DNA of 53,264 nt from Spirochaetales bacterium (GCA_028532905.1 JAQQAM010000258.1:1-53264); one strand, 5' to 3'; positions 46,165 through 53,141 are shown, numbered from the stretch's first letter. Translations and numbers: made by a program. The notes: generated by a model not told the origin, from the sequence alone.

Positions 46165-46178
46165 TACAGTGTAACAGT

Positions 46179-46209
46179 CTGCCGGAACCATCAGATCCGG
46201 CAGGTTTTT
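46179..46209 (+). terminator. Rho-independent terminator 1 after the dehydrogenase operon
   Basis: CTGCCGGA pairs with TCCGGCAG around a nine-base loop, then five T. Confidence 0.9.
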
Positions 46210-46574
46210 ATAAGACTTGAGAAATCTTCCTTTTTTAATTTCCTTTGTATGCGGAACCGTCTGTTTTTTACTCCTTAAACAGACAGTTCCCTTTTTTTTG
46301 AGTTATTTCTTACATATAGAAATCTTAAGAGTTTAGTATAAACAGCTTTACGATGAACGTATGGATTAATAAAACCGATCTTATAACTGTATTCAATGAG
46401 AATATGAGAATAAGTCCTGTGTTTGCTGGTCTCATTAAAATTATTTTTTTAATATATGATTCTATGCAAATCAGGCTGCATTATGCCAATGAACCAATTA
46501 ACTTGTAGACTTCAGAACGGGGGTTGGGATTGACCTTCATTTACCTTAGTTATTAGAATTATAATGGTTTTTGT
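46210..46574. other. AT-rich gene-free stretch
   Basis: Part of the 410-base gap between the dehydrogenase operon and the LuxR gene. Apart from the second terminator at 46253-46299 I see no coding frame, tRNA or repeat. The base composition changes here from the balanced composition to the left to clearly AT-rich on the right, so it probably contains the edge of an acquired segment. No attachment-site repeat was recognised, and no promoter could be assigned with confidence. Confidence 0.5.
46253..46299 (+). terminator. Rho-independent terminator 2
   Basis: GGAAC-C-GTCTGTTT pairs with AAACAGAC-A-GTTCC (one C/A mismatch) around a ten-base loop, followed by eight T. Confidence 0.85.
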
Positions 46575-47528
46575 ATGGAGGTTGGTGTGCAGCACTTCCT
46601 TATGGCTTTCTATATCCTCTTTTTTGCAACCGGTTTTATGGGTGGTGCCGCCCTTCTTCTGATGAGAATACGTATCCGCAGCAGTTTATTAAAACCACTC
46701 CTTGCTTTCCAGCTGCTTTTTTTGTTCGGGATTGGGCTAATAATTATTATCTACTATCTTCAGAACCTTCCTGCAGGATTGCATGATCCTGCAGCTCGGA
46801 TACTCCTTATTCTCGCAACAGGAAGCAATACTGCTATATGGGCTGTGGTTATAATTATTATAAGAAAAATATCTCCACCTGAGTCCCGTATGAAAGGCTT
46901 TCCCGCAATTACATCAAGCCTCGCCATACTTGTTATCTTTAAGAGCATTGCTAACATGCTATTGGTTTTACTGGTGGAGAGCGGGATCACCGGTGTAGAA
47001 GCCCTGACAGGTATGGAGGCATGGAATATGGGAGGCCATATTATGACAGGTCTTGCAATGGCTTCCTTTGGGATTCTTTTAAGAGCCCCTCTGAACCCTG
47101 ATGAGCCTGCTGAGATTCGTCCTCTTATGAAAGCCTATGGTCTTTGCGCAATAATATTTGCACCAGCTGGGCTCATTGAGTCTGCACTACAATCCTCTCA
47201 GATAGCATGGCTATCAACCATATCACTTGAGCATCTCTTCTATCTGGCATGGAACGTTATATCAATGTTTTTTGCCTTAAGACTATTGAAGCCTTCCAGC
47301 TCAGTATCTTCACCTATTGGGACAGTGCCTGAAGAGCTGATCAAAAACCTAAAACTTTCAGCAAGAGAAGTTGAAATGGCCATAATGATAGGACGGGGCC
47401 TGTCAAACAAAGAGATTGCAGCAGAGTTGTTTATATCCCCTGCAACCGTTCGCACACACATATATAACCTTTATCAGAAAGTAGGAGCCGGCAGCAGAGT
47501 AGAGCTTCTCAATAAGCTGCGGAATTAA
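46575..47528 (+). CDS. Seven-helix membrane protein with C-terminal LuxR helix-turn-helix
   Basis: 317 residues. Seven predicted membrane helices fill the first 240 residues (about 8-30, 40-60, 75-97, 108-132, 150-168, 185-205, 215-236). A LuxR/GerE DNA-binding domain follows at 261-317 (LSAREVEMAIMIGRGLSNKE, ATVRTHIYNLYQKVGAGSRV). This is a one-component membrane-bound regulator; no ligand is known. The start is uncertain: ATG 46575 lacks a ribosome-binding site, whereas GTG 46587 has GGAGG five bases before it. It precedes the MFS-ABC export genes and is their likely regulator. Confidence 0.87.
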   Translation: MEVGVQHFLMAFYILFFATGFMGGAALLLMRIRIRSSLLKPLLAFQLLFLFGIGLIIIIYYLQNLPAGLHDPAARILLILATGSNTAIWAVVIIIIRKISPPESRMKGFPAITSSLAILVIFKSIANMLLVLLVESGITGVEALTGMEAWNMGGHIMTGLAMASFGILLRAPLNPDEPAEIRPLMKAYGLCAIIFAPAGLIESALQSSQIAWLSTISLEHLFYLAWNVISMFFALRLLKPSSSVSSPIGTVPEELIKNLKLSAREVEMAIMIGRGLSNKEIAAELFISPATVRTHIYNLYQKVGAGSRVELLNKLRN

Positions 47529-47687
47529 TTACCCGCAGATCTTTCAAATTTCACTTCTTAAAATGTATTCCACAGCTTCAATTGTGGGTTTTCAACGAGA
47601 ATTCAACCCAAACTACGATTAATGTTCTACCCATATCCCATGTAATTACGACGATTATCTGATATGAAAAAAAACTCCTGCCCTCTA

Positions 47688-47711
47688 TCGTTTGAACATG
47701 AATACAAACGA
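47688..47711. promoter_or_regulatory. Inverted repeat upstream of the MFS gene, candidate operator
   Basis: TCGTTTG (47688-47694) and CAAACGA (47705-47711) form a perfect 7-10-7 inverted repeat 20 bases before the MFS start. It would suit a dimeric LuxR-type regulator, such as the adjacent one. No second copy was noticed. Confidence 0.4.
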
Positions 47712-47731
47712 AAAAGGGGAACAATCGAAAT

Positions 47732-48985
47732 ATGAAAAATCAATCTTATTCACGCTTTCTTGTTGTGTGGGCGGGACAGTTATTCTCTGGACTTGGAACT
47801 GGGATGACAGCATTCTCCCTCGGGATTTTTGTATTTGAAAAGACTAACAGTACTACGAGTTTTGCTTGGGTGATTCTCTCTCTTTTTCTCCCCTCTATTC
47901 TTCTTGCCCCCCTAGGGGGAATCCTCGCTGATCGTTTTGATAGACGGCTTATGATTGTCATTGGAGATACTGGCTCTGCCTTATCTGTGCTTTCTCTCCT
48001 TGGATGCCTTCTCTCAGGAGTTCTTTCAATGTGGATGATCTATTTGGGAGTAGCAATAGGCTCATCTTTTGCTGCTTTGCAGGGACCGGCATACAAGGCA
48101 TCAGTATCTGATCTGCTAACAGAGTCCCAGTTTGCAAAAGCTGGAGGTTTAATGCAGCTTGCGGCGTCAACCAGACATCTGATTTCACCGGTGGCCGCGG
48201 GTGTTCTTTTTACAATCTCAGGATTGAAAACAGTGCTTTTGATTGATGCAACAACATTTGGCCTTGCGGTTGGAGCGGCACTTTGTATACCAGCAAATGT
48301 AAATATAAAGCAACAAAGAGACCAACACCAGCTCCTTAAAGAAATGAAGGAAGGGTGGGAAATCCTCCTGGCTAACCGGAAGGTAACAAAGGTTATTCTC
48401 GCACTTGCAATAGTGACCTTTTATGTCGGCTATATTCAGACCCTTTTCACACCAATGATACTAGCTATAACAGATGTGAAAAACCTCGGAGCAATCCAGT
48501 CTGTAAGTGCTTTAGGTATGCTTGTTGGAAGTCTTCAAATAAGTTTTGTCGGGCTCAAACGGGATGTACGGTTTCAATTGAGCATAGGCATTGGCTGCGG
48601 TGGGGTCTGTCTGGTCGCCTTAGGTATGGGTACGAATCTAATCTTGATTACAACCTTTTTATTTTTGTTTTTTCTGTGTCTGCCGCTGATAAATACCAGC
48701 GCAGAAGTACTGATAAGAACTGGAATTTCAGTTGAGAAACAGGGGCGGGTCTGGGGGATTACAAGCCTGCTGTCTCAGACGGGTTATTTAGTTGCTTACC
48801 TGAGTGCAGGCTTTCTCTCTGATCGTATTTTCAGTCCCCTTCTTTCTGAAAATGGACTGCTTGCTGCCACTGTCGGACGTGTAATTGGTACAGGACCTGG
48901 ACGAGGGAATGCTTTCATTCTGATGATCTGCGGTACGGGTTTGATTTTAACTTCAATCAGGGGGAGAAAAAATGCTTTTGTATAG
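47732..48985 (+). CDS. MFS exporter (MFS_3 / EntS-like)
   Basis: 417 residues, about twelve membrane helices. MFS features: WAGQLFSGLGTGMTAFSLGI in helix 1 and the loop 2-3 signature GGILADRFDRRLMIVIGDTG. The family exports siderophores, macrolides and other small molecules. An AAAGGGGA lies before the ATG. The last 14 bases overlap the FtsX-type permease gene, so translation is coupled. Substrate unknown; its combination with an ABC exporter suggests the two handle one class of compound. Confidence 0.9.
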   Translation: MKNQSYSRFLVVWAGQLFSGLGTGMTAFSLGIFVFEKTNSTTSFAWVILSLFLPSILLAPLGGILADRFDRRLMIVIGDTGSALSVLSLLGCLLSGVLSMWMIYLGVAIGSSFAALQGPAYKASVSDLLTESQFAKAGGLMQLAASTRHLISPVAAGVLFTISGLKTVLLIDATTFGLAVGAALCIPANVNIKQQRDQHQLLKEMKEGWEILLANRKVTKVILALAIVTFYVGYIQTLFTPMILAITDVKNLGAIQSVSALGMLVGSLQISFVGLKRDVRFQLSIGIGCGGVCLVALGMGTNLILITTFLFLFFLCLPLINTSAEVLIRTGISVEKQGRVWGITSLLSQTGYLVAYLSAGFLSDRIFSPLLSENGLLAATVGRVIGTGPGRGNAFILMICGTGLILTSIRGRKNAFV

Positions 48986-51314
48986 AATTTTAAGTAAAGA
49001 TTTAAAAAGAAAAAAAGGAACAATGGCAGGAGTATTTGTTTTCATCATGCTCTCGTCCCTTCTTGTCTCAAGTGGTTCAAGATTAATTATTGAATTGAAT
49101 AATTCACTTGAACATATGTTTGAAACAGCAAAAGTCCCTCATTTTGTACAGATGCATTCCGGAGACATTGATCTTAAAAAGCTGAACAAATGGTCAGAGT
49201 CAAACTTTCTTGTTCAAGACCGACAAATAGTAGAAATGATCTCAATTGATGGATCAGCCCTATTTTTAAATAAGGGTCCGGAGAGTGAAGAAAACAGTAT
49301 TATGGACATCAGCTTTGTCAGACAAAATAAGTCCTTCGATTTTCTGCTCGACACTGAAAATAGAATCATAGAATTGTTACCCGGGGAAGTTGCTGTTCCA
49401 GTCTACTATGCAGAGCAGAAAAATGTGGAGATCGGTGATCTGATCAGAGTCCGAAGTGAAGCAAAGGAAGAAAGCTATAAAGTCTCTGCTCTGATTCGTG
49501 ATGCTCAAATGAACCCGGCCATTGTGCATTCAAAGAGATTTCTGCTCAATGATGCAGACTTCGATAAAATGAGGCAAAACTTTGACCAGTTGGAATATCT
49601 AATCGAATTCCGGCTCAATGATACAGGATCCTTGGACAAGTTCACAAATGAATATCTGTCTGCAGGAATGCCGCAACAGGGGCCAACAGTTGATTATCAC
49701 CTTTTTAAGATACTGAATAGTCTGAGTGATGGTATGGCGGCATCAGTTGTCATTATCTTAAGCATTCTTTTGATGCTGATCGCGATTCTCTGCTTGAGGT
49801 TAACCATCATAACAACTATTGAAGAGGACTATAAGGAAATTGGAGTGATGAAAGCCGTTGGGATGCCCCAGAACAGGATAAAGTGCCTCTATCTCTTTAA
49901 ATATAATCTAATCGGGGCTGCCGCTGTCATATCAGGATACTTGTTATCCCATAGTACAGACAAATTACTTATGGCAAATAGCATGCTGTATATAGGTAGG
50001 GCGCCAAAAGGCCTCTTTTTGGTTGTGGGTCCTATTCTTTCCGCTGCCTCAATTTTTCTGTTCATAATGCTTTCAATTGATTTGATGTTAAAACGAATTC
50101 AAAATATCAGCGCAGCCAGAGCCCTTCAAGAGGGAGATAAAACAGAGGTCCCTAAAAAAATCTCTGCTCTTCGCGTATCCCGCAGTGGAAATATTAATAT
50201 CAATTTTTTTCTGGGGCTCAAGGATGTGATAGAACGGTTCCGTGTTTTCAGTTTGCTCGCATTCATCTTTTTTCTATCGGCATTCATTACAATTCTTCCA
50301 GTCCATTTTCTCTCTACTATATCCTCTCCAGATTTTATTACTTATATGGGAATAGGAAAGAGCGACATCCGCATTGACCTCCATAAAACAACTGGTATTG
50401 AAGAACGATTTGAAGAGATGATAAATCTTATTGATAGGGACAATGATGTGGCGCTCTATTCCCCACTGGTGACCTCAAAGTTCACAGTACTGGATGATAC
50501 GGGACATAGTGAAAGCCTTATGGTAGAGACAGGAGATTTTTCAATCTTCTCCCTGGATTATCTGAGTGGCCGGGCCCCTCAGAATAATGATGAAATTGCC
50601 CTCTCATATCTAAACAGCCAGGAGTTGAATAAAAATATTGGAGACGTATTGATATTCCAAATAGAGGGGAATAATCATAATATGCGTGTCTGCGGCATCT
50701 ATCAGGATATAACCAATGGGGGCCGAACTGCCAAAGCCTCCCTGCCGCATAACAAAGATAAGGTTCTTTGGTATACCCTATGTTTGAATTTGAAATCAGA
50801 GGTTTTGATTCCGTCAAAGGTTCATGAATACAGCAGGCTTTTCTATCCTGCCAGAGTAAGCGATTTGGATAACTATAAGTCTCAGACCCTCAGTAATACG
50901 ATAACCCAATTCCGGAAAATTACCATAATAGCAATAGCCGTCGGAGCATCGGTTGCGATGCTGATCTCATATCTTTTTCTAAAGATGATCATTAACAGGG
51001 ATTCAGAGCGGGTGAGAATTATGAGGAGTCTTGGTTTTTCTTTGAGGCAGCTTAAAGCGCAATATCTGACAACAACTCTGATCCTTCTGGTCTTTGGAAT
51101 TGTGACAGGTACTATTTTCACTAATACCGCAGGGCAAGCTTTTATTAGCTACCTGATTTCATTTCTGGGCGCAGCTCGGATACGTTTCATAATAAATCCA
51201 TTTCAAACAGCTGTTCTGGTTCCGGTTTTACTCATCAGTACAGTCTCTCTTACCACTGCCATCAGCGTTAATGGAATAAAAGAATATAGAATCACCGCGT
51301 CTGTTGCGGAATAA
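48972..51314 (+). CDS. FtsX-type ABC transporter permease (large, two FtsX modules)
   Basis: 780 residues with two FtsX modules and about eight membrane helices: one near 15-38, then a large extracytoplasmic domain, three around 250-370, one near 420-440, a second large domain, and three in the last 140 residues. The cytoplasmic pattern EEDYKEIGVMKAVGMPQNRI before helix 3, and its repeat RDSERVRIMRSLGFSLRQLK, are typical MacB/FtsX coupling segments. These proteins do not form classical channels; they export peptides or lipoproteins or transmit force. Its partner is the ATPase 11 bases downstream. Overlaps the MFS gene by 14 bases. Confidence 0.92.
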   Translation: MLLYRILSKDLKRKKGTMAGVFVFIMLSSLLVSSGSRLIIELNNSLEHMFETAKVPHFVQMHSGDIDLKKLNKWSESNFLVQDRQIVEMISIDGSALFLNKGPESEENSIMDISFVRQNKSFDFLLDTENRIIELLPGEVAVPVYYAEQKNVEIGDLIRVRSEAKEESYKVSALIRDAQMNPAIVHSKRFLLNDADFDKMRQNFDQLEYLIEFRLNDTGSLDKFTNEYLSAGMPQQGPTVDYHLFKILNSLSDGMAASVVIILSILLMLIAILCLRLTIITTIEEDYKEIGVMKAVGMPQNRIKCLYLFKYNLIGAAAVISGYLLSHSTDKLLMANSMLYIGRAPKGLFLVVGPILSAASIFLFIMLSIDLMLKRIQNISAARALQEGDKTEVPKKISALRVSRSGNININFFLGLKDVIERFRVFSLLAFIFFLSAFITILPVHFLSTISSPDFITYMGIGKSDIRIDLHKTTGIEERFEEMINLIDRDNDVALYSPLVTSKFTVLDDTGHSESLMVETGDFSIFSLDYLSGRAPQNNDEIALSYLNSQELNKNIGDVLIFQIEGNNHNMRVCGIYQDITNGGRTAKASLPHNKDKVLWYTLCLNLKSEVLIPSKVHEYSRLFYPARVSDLDNYKSQTLSNTITQFRKITIIAIAVGASVAMLISYLFLKMIINRDSERVRIMRSLGFSLRQLKAQYLTTTLILLVFGIVTGTIFTNTAGQAFISYLISFLGAARIRFIINPFQTAVLVPVLLISTVSLTTAISVNGIKEYRITASVAE

Positions 51315-51325
51315 GGAAGGAATAT

Positions 51326-52144
51326 ATGAGTACAATACTGCAATCAGAAAAGTTAAGTAAATATTATAAAATCGGTACAAATAACCTGAAAAAGGTTCTA
51401 AATGAAGTTGACCTTCAGGTTGAAAGAGGTGAGTTCGTTACAATTATGGGCCCCTCCGGCTCAGGTAAGTCAACTCTTTTGTACAACATCTCCGGAATGG
51501 ATCGAATGAGTTCTGGAAGGGTATATTTTAATGAGAAGGAGCTATCTGGTCTTTCTGAAAAATCCCTTTCTGATCTAAGGCTGAATGAGATGGGATTTAT
51601 ATTTCAACAAATTCATCTTCTCAAGAACCTATCCCTCAAGGATAACATTATTCTCTCTGGATATCTATCTGGTAGGAGACACCGAAAGGATGTCAATAAA
51701 AAAGCCCAATTCCTTATGGAAATGACCGGTATAGAATCTCTGGCACATAATGACATAACTCAGGCTTCGGGAGGACAGCTTCAACGAGTTGGAATCTGCC
51801 GTGCTCTCATAAATGATCCCGAAATAATTTTCGGAGATGAACCAACGGGAGCCCTGGATTCTAAATCATCCTCAGAGATTATGCAGCTTCTTAGAACTAT
51901 AAACAAATCGGGAACAACAGTTCTTCTTGTTACACATGACTCGAAAGTAGCTTCACAAAGCGATCGTGTCCTATATATGGAAGATGGCCAAATTGTCACA
52001 GAAATAACACTCGGAAGATTTTCAGGAAATAAAAAAGAAGCTCTTGAACGGGAATCCAGGCTTTCTGAGTGGCTTCTCAAATCTGATGACCATGTCAAAG
52101 ATGCTGCAATAGCTCCTCTTTTGACAGAGTCAGTGTACAACTAA
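51326..52144 (+). CDS. ABC transporter ATP-binding protein (MacB/LolD type)
   Basis: 272 residues. Walker A GPSGSGKST (42-50), Q-loop FIFQQIHLLKNLS, signature ASGGQLQRVGICRAL (Ala for the usual Leu), Walker B IIFGDEPTGALD and H-loop LLVTHDSKVAS. The DEPTGALD form is typical of MacB/LolD-type ATPases for FtsX permeases. About 40 residues extend past the usual end of the domain, rich in charged residues. AAGGAAGGA precedes the ATG. It energises the 780-residue permease. Confidence 0.94.
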   Translation: MSTILQSEKLSKYYKIGTNNLKKVLNEVDLQVERGEFVTIMGPSGSGKSTLLYNISGMDRMSSGRVYFNEKELSGLSEKSLSDLRLNEMGFIFQQIHLLKNLSLKDNIILSGYLSGRRHRKDVNKKAQFLMEMTGIESLAHNDITQASGGQLQRVGICRALINDPEIIFGDEPTGALDSKSSSEIMQLLRTINKSGTTVLLVTHDSKVASQSDRVLYMEDGQIVTEITLGRFSGNKKEALERESRLSEWLLKSDDHVKDAAIAPLLTESVYN

Positions 52145-52160
52145 AATTGGAGAGAATAGC

Positions 52161-53141
52161 ATGTTTGAAAATATCTATATCATTGAAAAATTAGCGACAA
52201 TTCAACATAATGAGCTTCAATATAAACTGGAGAGGCAGCACCAAATAAACAATGCGGGCTTTTATGCCGGAAAGACCAGTACATTCAACCTTTTTATTAA
52301 ATCGGGTAAGAACTTTTTACAGTCGATAGAGGAGAAAAAGATGCTGTCAATAATTATTATTATCCTGATTTTATTGTCCTTGGTTTTCTTTGCCGGAAAG
52401 AGTCATATGTACATTATTGTGGAAAGGGAAAGGGAGTTATTAAGATCTCTTTCAACTGATCTTTCCGGCCGAATCTACAGAGAGGATCAAATTGAAGGGC
52501 TCCCCGTACCGGTACAGCGCTATTTCCGGAATGTTTTAACTGATGGACAACCATACATCAGCTCAGTTTACCTGAAGCACGATGGCCAATTTAAAACCGC
52601 TCTGGATAAGGAATGGATCAACATTGAAGGGGAACAGCACTTCACAACTGATGAGCCCGGATTCTTATGGAATGGAAAAACAGCCCTTTTTACAGTCCAG
52701 GATATGTATATTGCCGGGAAAGGCCACATCAGGGTCTCTCTTTTAAACATAATAAAAGTGTTAGATGGAAAGGGGCCGGAATATGACCAGGGAGAACTTC
52801 TTCGATGGCTGGGAGAGAGTGTCTGGTTTCCTACGAATCTGTTGCCCAGTTCTCGTCTTCAATGGACGGCCATAGATGATAATATGGCAAAGCTCTCTTT
52901 CTCTTACAACGATCAGATTCTGTCATATAAGGTTAGTTTCAATGGAAAGGGAGAGATAGTCCAACTGGAGACCAGCCGTTACATGAGTAGAGAAAACCAG
53001 GAGATCTGGATAGGGCGTTTAAGCAAATATGAAGAAATTAATGGTATGAAAATACCAATGGAAATTGAAGCATTGTGGAAGCTCACTGATGGAGAACACA
53101 GCTATGCACGATTCAATGTAAACAGAATTCATCATAACTAA
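52161..53141 (+). CDS. DUF6544-like membrane-anchored protein with N-terminal extension
   Basis: 326 residues from 52161, where GGAGAG precedes the ATG. Residues 1-60 are charged and soluble and unlike the rest. Residues 61-80 are a hydrophobic anchor (MLSIIIIILILLSLVFFAGK). The remainder is a beta-rich domain with EGLPVPVQRYFRNVL and WNGKTALFTVQDMYIAG, resembling DUF6544 proteins of unknown function. An alternative ATG at 52341 (residue 61) has GAGGAG at good spacing and would give a normal DUF6544 protein. Last gene of the cassette. Probably membrane-anchored with its domain outside. Confidence 0.72.
   Translation: MFENIYIIEKLATIQHNELQYKLERQHQINNAGFYAGKTSTFNLFIKSGKNFLQSIEEKKMLSIIIIILILLSLVFFAGKSHMYIIVERERELLRSLSTDLSGRIYREDQIEGLPVPVQRYFRNVLTDGQPYISSVYLKHDGQFKTALDKEWINIEGEQHFTTDEPGFLWNGKTALFTVQDMYIAGKGHIRVSLLNIIKVLDGKGPEYDQGELLRWLGESVWFPTNLLPSSRLQWTAIDDNMAKLSFSYNDQILSYKVSFNGKGEIVQLETSRYMSRENQEIWIGRLSKYEEINGMKIPMEIEALWKLTDGEHSYARFNVNRIHHN

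Follow-up and report, generated by a model that had tools for sequence, protein, structure and literature searches.

A membrane LuxR regulator beside an MFS exporter and a type VII ABC transporter in an apparently acquired spirochaete gene cassette

The window analyzed here, 53,264 nucleotides in length, is the full contig C258 (JAQQAM010000258.1) of a 5.0-Mb draft genome of a Spirochaetales bacterium (GCA_028532905.1), in which the flagellar filament family FlaA has three matches (0/14 in control genomes). At its end lies an AT-rich cassette of five genes (46575–53141), all on the plus strand (Table 1); the cassette is the last item on the contig, so its right end is undefined in the window. 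The five open reading frames of the original prediction were found at the proposed coordinates and on the proposed strand, and Pfam agrees with the identities assigned to them, namely GerE/LuxR, MFS_1, FtsX (in two stretches), ABC_tran and DUF6544. The MFS and FtsX genes overlap by 14 bp at 48972–48985, as had been claimed, the permease and ATPase genes are separated by 11 bp and the ATPase and DUF6544 genes by 16 bp, and luxR ends 203 bp upstream of 47732. Because of the overlap and these short gaps, we read 47732–53141 as one operon, in which two exporter types are coupled as predicted. The cassette is separated from the preceding dehydrogenase operon by two strong terminator-like hairpins, whose predicted folding energies are -16.9 kcal/mol (z -3.6) and -16.6 kcal/mol (z -4.6) and each of which is followed by a T run. 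A search for a tRNA- or repeat-bounded integration site gave no tRNA and only short, chance-like repeats. An identity as an anti-phage defense system was rejected, the defense models having given generic ATPase and HTH matches only.

Table 1. Genes and predicted sites of the cassette and its upstream border (positions in the window)
Feature	Position	Strand	Basis
Two terminator-like hairpins (about 46176–46207 and 46253–46290)	46175–46290	+	RNA folds and T runs
Possible sigma-70 promoter of luxR, TTGACC-18-TAGAAT	46530–46559	+	Consensus match, 10 of 12
7-TM LuxR one-component regulator, 313 aa from GTG 46587	46587–47528	+	GerE, helices, orthologs
Predicted operator box 1, 18-bp dyad CTACGATTAATGTTCTAC, consensus CTACGA-N6-TCGTAG	47613–47630	+	Conserved position
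Predicted operator box 2, TACGACGATTATCTGA, consensus YACGA-N6-TYYGA	47647–47662	+	Held-out matrix
Predicted -10 element of exporter operon, TATCGT	47686–47691	+	39 bp from box 2 start
MFS exporter, 417 aa	47732–48985	+	MFS_1, E 4.6e-28
Type VII ABC permease, 780 aa	48972–51314	+	FtsX, E 2.4e-17
ABC ATPase of LolD/MacB type, 272 aa	51326–52144	+	ABC_tran, E 9.4e-30
DUF6544 protein, one N-terminal membrane helix	52161–53141	+	DUF6544 (PF20181), E 1e-68

The first gene encodes a protein with a GerE match at its C-terminus (E 2.1e-17) and seven hydrophobic helices, in agreement with the claim of a seven-helix protein carrying its own LuxR domain. The reading frame is open from ATG 46575; the start is probably GTG 46587 instead, because the orthologs begin at the same residue and GGAGGT lies just upstream. 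Hydropathy and charge predict an N-out/C-in topology by the positive-inside pattern, with 4, 4, 3 and 11 Lys and Arg residues in the inner loops and tail and 0, 1, 0 and 0 outside. Ahead of the HTH, Pfam matches with E values up to 10 included neither an autoinducer-binding domain nor a receiver domain. A possible promoter precedes luxR, the count of such matches in the region being equal to that in shuffles. The orthologs are 48–72% identical, and the DNA-recognition region SPATVRTHIYNLY is invariant in the seven that were aligned.

A literature search on 7-TM LuxR proteins in spirochaetes gave nothing relevant among the papers covered. In Eggerthella lenta, the 12-TM LuxR proteins DadR, CadR and HcdR are proven ligand-dependent activators of adjacent genes (PMC9734109). 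The spirochaete regulator resembles them in joining a polytopic N-terminal membrane domain to a C-terminal LuxR HTH and in the location of its gene beside the presumed target. It differs in that it has seven helices as opposed to 10–12, occurs in spirochaetes and not in Coriobacteriia, and adjoins exporter and envelope genes instead of genes for redox enzymes; furthermore, a shared two-dyad operator was found for the spirochaete regulator, while activation of adjacent genes is proven for the Eggerthella proteins and predicted here. Judged by its helix number, the regulator is not a member of the 10–12-helix DadR type, although by analogy it would work like one.

The putative operator (47613–47662) lies between luxR and the MFS gene and consists of two tandem dyads. 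Comparison of the gaps after luxR revealed that the distance from box 1 to box 2 is 33–34 bp in LuxR-linked loci, and that the distance from box 2 to a TANNNT -10 element is a constant 39 bp in the aligned loci (the element is CATAAT in L117), with no good -35 element. When the -10 element is taken as -12 to -7, box 2 is centered near -43.5. This is a class II activator position; the lux box of LuxR is located near -42.5. The operator was found in 15 loci of the regulator clade and is absent from 14 comparison loci, where the regulator is a different one or none is known, the loci being kin and their counts not independent events. A matrix tested with the whole test family left out of training ranked the true site first in 14/15 loci, the exception being that of the congener G003, where another site outscores the true one, and its best scores in the 14 comparison loci were ≤1.9. 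The window site was first of 106,364 positions, at 12.6 bits vs -2.0 for the next. The composite pattern has one occurrence in the whole genome, at this site; a reversed control pattern also has one, and the single occurrence therefore carries information only when combined with the matrix score. The operator is retained in a genome (G090) that has no adjacent luxR and encodes a LuxR homolog (46%) elsewhere, and in another (G147) in which a contig end cuts luxR; it is also present after luxR in G170 and G284. The strength of the operator evidence lies in a non-coding spacing that is kept between families whose LuxR proteins are only about 50–60% identical, and the invariance of the DNA-recognition region fits a conserved operator site.

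The proposal that LuxR directly controls the exporters thus gains support from a conserved operator with class II activator spacing before the exporter genes. We consider it highly likely that the 7-TM LuxR controls the operon through the predicted operator, and likely, with a little less assurance, that it does so as an activator; DNA binding and activation are what we infer from the geometry of the operator and its restriction to the regulator clade, both of which are directly visible in the sequences.

As for the transporters, the TIGR00900, EntS and Mef models all scored the MFS protein below their cut-offs. The ATPase contains a Walker A motif (GPSGSGKST), the signature ASGGQ, a Walker B motif (IIFGDEP) and THD, all read in the sequence, and its nearest models are LolD and MacB, below cut-off. 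An AF2 model of the permease (pLDDT 80.8), for which the window protein was combined with 23 relatives taken from genome contigs, has eight long membrane-type helices and two periplasmic domains, and its best fold match is E. coli YbbP (Z about 23, 676 residues), followed by BceB, LolC/E, MacB and HrtB. The protein pair shows the hallmarks of a type VII ABC system, namely an FtsX-type permease fold in which each half has an extracytoplasmic domain inserted after its first helix and before its second, and a LolD-like ATPase, and we take the permease, by family knowledge, to be a mechanotransmission device.

The permease is similar to YbbP in being a single chain of comparable length with two periplasmic domains; YbbP has 10 membrane helices, whereas the model here has eight long ones. 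YbbAP-TesA includes the TesA esterase, whereas the cassette operon has no esterase gene but an MFS gene, to which a barrel gene is added in relatives. MacAB-TolC, LolCDE, BceAB and HrtBA share the fold of each permease half and the separate LolD-like ATPase; unlike in these systems, the two halves are fused here and bear two periplasmic domains. The partners of MacAB-TolC, LolCDE and BceAB, that is, the adaptor, TolC, LolA and BceS genes, are all absent from the cassette operon, and the module showed neither a membrane-fusion protein nor a TolC-type channel. BceAB also differs in its single extracellular domain, 10 helices and BceS kinase, compared with two domains, eight helices and no kinase gene here. 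Hydrophobic compounds are pulled out of the inner membrane by YbbAP-TesA, and it is typical of type VII systems to perform periplasmic work without moving the substrate through the membrane (PMC12646458). In the present module, the inner-membrane crossing step would fall to the MFS protein.

The permease was found at E 1e-60 or better in 30 of 395 sampled genomes of the class, and a strong LuxR ortholog (above 430 bits) in 18 of the 395, adjoining the permease gene in 13/18. In the others, the contig breaks after luxR-barrel-MFS (G170) or luxR-methyltransferase-barrel (G284), luxR lies apart from the permease gene (G378 and G358), or no module gene is seen on a short contig (G382). The permeases of LuxR-linked loci are united in a single clade with 15 members (support 100/99), of which four have no adjacent luxR, at least one through a contig end; the nearest relative of the window permease in the tree is that of the same-genus G003. 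The gene order, for which a search in other genomes had been suggested, recurs across spirochaete families: the full order in relatives is luxR, barrel protein, (MFS), permease and ATPase, in spirochaetes of about six families. The extra gene encodes a 300–330 aa protein with a signal peptide, a barrel-like C-terminus and no Pfam match, and no solved structural relatives were found for it. This protein is probably an outer-membrane barrel, an assignment that is likely rather than certain because a C-terminal phenylalanine is present in only 7/15 members. The barrel gene was not found anywhere in this genome, nor in G021, and the module here may therefore be incomplete or partnered differently.

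Elsewhere, the permease and ATPase are under the control of TetR or of a two-component pair of response regulator and kinase. Homologs in Firmicutes (Paenibacillus, Clostridium, Anaerocolumna and Enterococcus) have the same gene order, with permeases mostly 31–46% and ATPases 51–65% identical; unlike the cassette, these operons are under kinase-pair or TetR control, contain no luxR, barrel or DUF6544 gene, and have a coupled MFS gene in one case only (L021). Plasmids carry only distant permease relatives, mostly on Enterococcus megaplasmids, and TetR adjoins the pump in the one record opened. The original prediction had overlooked the barrel partner, the operator, the lineage-specific addition of DUF6544, and the control of the pump core by TetR or kinases elsewhere.

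The cassette was claimed to be richer in A+T and different in codon usage from its surroundings, and per-gene GC, GC3 and codon scores all proved atypical for the genome. With 183 genes sampled across 19 contigs of the same genome as the reference, GC is 0.397–0.446 vs 0.488 ± 0.035, GC3 is 0.33–0.44 vs 0.532 ± 0.063, and the codon score is in the lowest 1% for 5/5 cassette genes; the dehydrogenase genes directly before the cassette are at the 89th–98th percentile of GC. That AT-richness is inherent to the module was ruled out, since the module in other spirochaete genera is approximately as GC-rich as its neighbors or richer, and the AT-richness thus reflects acquisition in this lineage. An orthologous module is present in 1/5 congeners (G003) and absent from four. 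The E1 dehydrogenase before the cassette is 89–93% identical across the genus, whereas the permease is only 61% identical to that of G003. Homology with the congeners ends exactly at the dehydrogenase stop codon, downstream of which four congeners have an NAD-glutamate dehydrogenase gene in place of the cassette. Judging from this foreign composition, the absence from four congeners and the different gene after the dehydrogenase there, the cassette is horizontally acquired, as had been suspected. Composition is not that of the genome average, the gene order is conserved, and the predicted transcripts are neither separate nor unregulated.

The NAD-glutamate dehydrogenase gene of the present genome is located on the 4.5-kb contig C19 (L147 1509–4361), with 124 bp of upstream sequence; the cut of this contig is a plausible candidate for the far side of an insertion at the E1 stop. 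In G003, the module occupies a different site, in a low-GC island of ~16 kb (0.39 vs 0.47–0.48 in the flanks) that contains a Mutator-family transposase and lies within a complete 4-Mb contig. Directly upstream of that module (L048 13925–15967) are the Mutator-family transposase and another gene for a membrane LuxR protein, with about 32% identity. A chance neighborhood of unrelated transporters, or an assembly error that attached the end of a foreign contig to the dehydrogenase operon, would account for the stop of congener homology and the jump in composition at the same codon, as well as for a contig that ends soon after. However, many genomes share both the gene order and the operator, and the nearest relative of the permease is the G003 copy, placed in its low-GC island inside a complete contig, which leaves such an artefact highly improbable.

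DUF6544 is part of the operon only here and in the congener G003, whose ortholog is in the same place. The domain scores 231 bits vs a family cut-off of 25, in a protein with a single hydrophobic segment. Its start may instead be ATG 52341 (266 aa; GAGGAG upstream), the 60 residues upstream of which are partly conserved in frame in G003. The N-terminal 30–60 residues encoded at 52161–52340 (MFENIYIIEK...) resemble the start of an FMN-binding lipoprotein of G048 (MFESSYGIERM...; L104 9764–10240). A single-sequence AF2 model (pLDDT 40.6) was useless for the fold, profile searches gave no PDB relative, no DUF6544 was found in viral contigs, and a literature search on DUF6544 found none. Close relatives occur beside a different 7-TM LuxR, barrel, MFS, CAAX protease and ABC-2 exporter in G048, beside a frameshifted LuxR and a CAAX protease in G089, and near a degraded LuxR of the regulator clade in G073. 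These recurring neighbors suggest a shared envelope role. At L109 3508–5563 (G073) and L103 3470–4388 (G089), frameshifts or stops interrupt the LuxR and DUF6544 genes, and such decayed copies appear to be a sign of repeated loss.

The CAAX genes bear on the possibility that the module exports, or confers immunity to, a product of the cell itself, such as a bacteriocin-like peptide or a lipid, with LuxR sensing the product and CAAX proteases acting in maturation or immunity. CAAX (Rce1-like) genes adjoin DUF6544 in G003, G048 and G089, one in G003 having its own operator, and bacteriocin exporters are among the nearest models of the LolD/MacB-type ATPase. However, neither the cassette nor the annotated neighbors of the conserved module showed a precursor-peptide or biosynthetic gene, and the same pump is under TetR or kinase control in unrelated bacteria; both observations are as expected of a response system and make export of a self-product rather improbable. 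The two CAAX protease genes of G003 follow DUF6544 (L048 3466–4500 and 5535–6398). The second full operator site of that genome precedes a short remnant frame and a CAAX protease gene; this first driven frame resembles a truncated nitroreductase N-terminus.

Candidate operator sites are also present before an ICMT-like methyltransferase gene in G378 and G358 and before an alpha/beta hydrolase gene in G211, weakly in G236, all of which encode more distant regulator homologs. An ICMT/PEMT-like methyltransferase is thus a likely second target of the regulator. Because the regulator gene of G378 and G358 is unlinked to the permease and the methyltransferase has a candidate operator, the regulon appears to vary. 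A housekeeping system that, during envelope stress, transfers endogenous lipids or lipoproteins from one membrane to another, in a Lol- or YbbAP-like manner with the barrel and DUF6544 as carrier or acceptor parts, would agree with the nearest folds (YbbP and LolC/E), with the barrel gene in the operon of most relatives, and with the PEMT/ICMT-type methyltransferase, CAAX protease and hydrolase genes that occur with the regulator or its operator. It is nevertheless unlikely, given the patchy distribution of the permease and the foreign composition here, and it leaves the MFS pump unexplained.

On balance, we favor an acquired inducible envelope-export module composed of a membrane one-component LuxR, an MFS exporter and a type VII ABC system, and by analogy with related systems lean toward a role in clearing hydrophobic or membrane-active compounds from the envelope. 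The suggested resistance role is plausible; the ligand, substrate, transport direction and protective role given here, as well as the role of DUF6544, are presumptive. The 7-TM sensor would detect a compound in or near the membrane, and the regulator would bind the two tandem dyads beside its own gene and, by class II activation, recruit RNA polymerase to the promoter of the MFS-FtsX-ATPase-DUF6544 operon. The MFS pump would then move the substrate from the cytoplasm or inner leaflet outward, while cytoplasmic ATP hydrolysis would drive the two periplasmic domains of the permease, which would withdraw a substrate of hydrophobic or amphipathic character from the inner membrane at its outer leaflet. 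The probable barrel encoded in the same operon would receive the substrate in most relatives, this genome being without it, and DUF6544 may be an anchored extracytoplasmic accessory.

The module looks like an apparently undescribed combination of known kinds, a membrane LuxR and a type VII ABC system. The way in which LuxR proteins with several membrane helices gain access to DNA and act on it can be directly tested here, where receptor, candidate DNA site and target operon form a single small, movable unit of which many genomes have natural variants. The module is also a pointer to a machine for envelope clearing or export in the spirochaete phylum, in which envelope transport is poorly known, and the association of the barrel with the pump in most relatives suggests an outer-membrane route without a TolC-type channel. 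More tentatively, the regulators may constitute a 7-TM LuxR receptor family that spans many spirochaete families with one fixed operator, its main target possibly being an undescribed complex of the barrel and the two-domain type VII ABC transporter that moves hydrophobic compounds. Such a complex could conceivably act with the MFS protein and accessory membrane enzymes, across or out of the spirochaete envelope.

Genes for ICMT/PEMT-like methyltransferases were located at L049 5787–6500, L056 8033–8686, L117 7746–8309, L188 8237–9022, L184 9447–10670 and L185 5539–6717, where they are either divergent beside a barrel or MFS gene or have the operator in front. At L190 9118–10188 and L191 9117–10241, which belong to another family, a distant 7-TM LuxR gene is followed by an operator-like site and a gene for a lipoprotein-type alpha/beta hydrolase.
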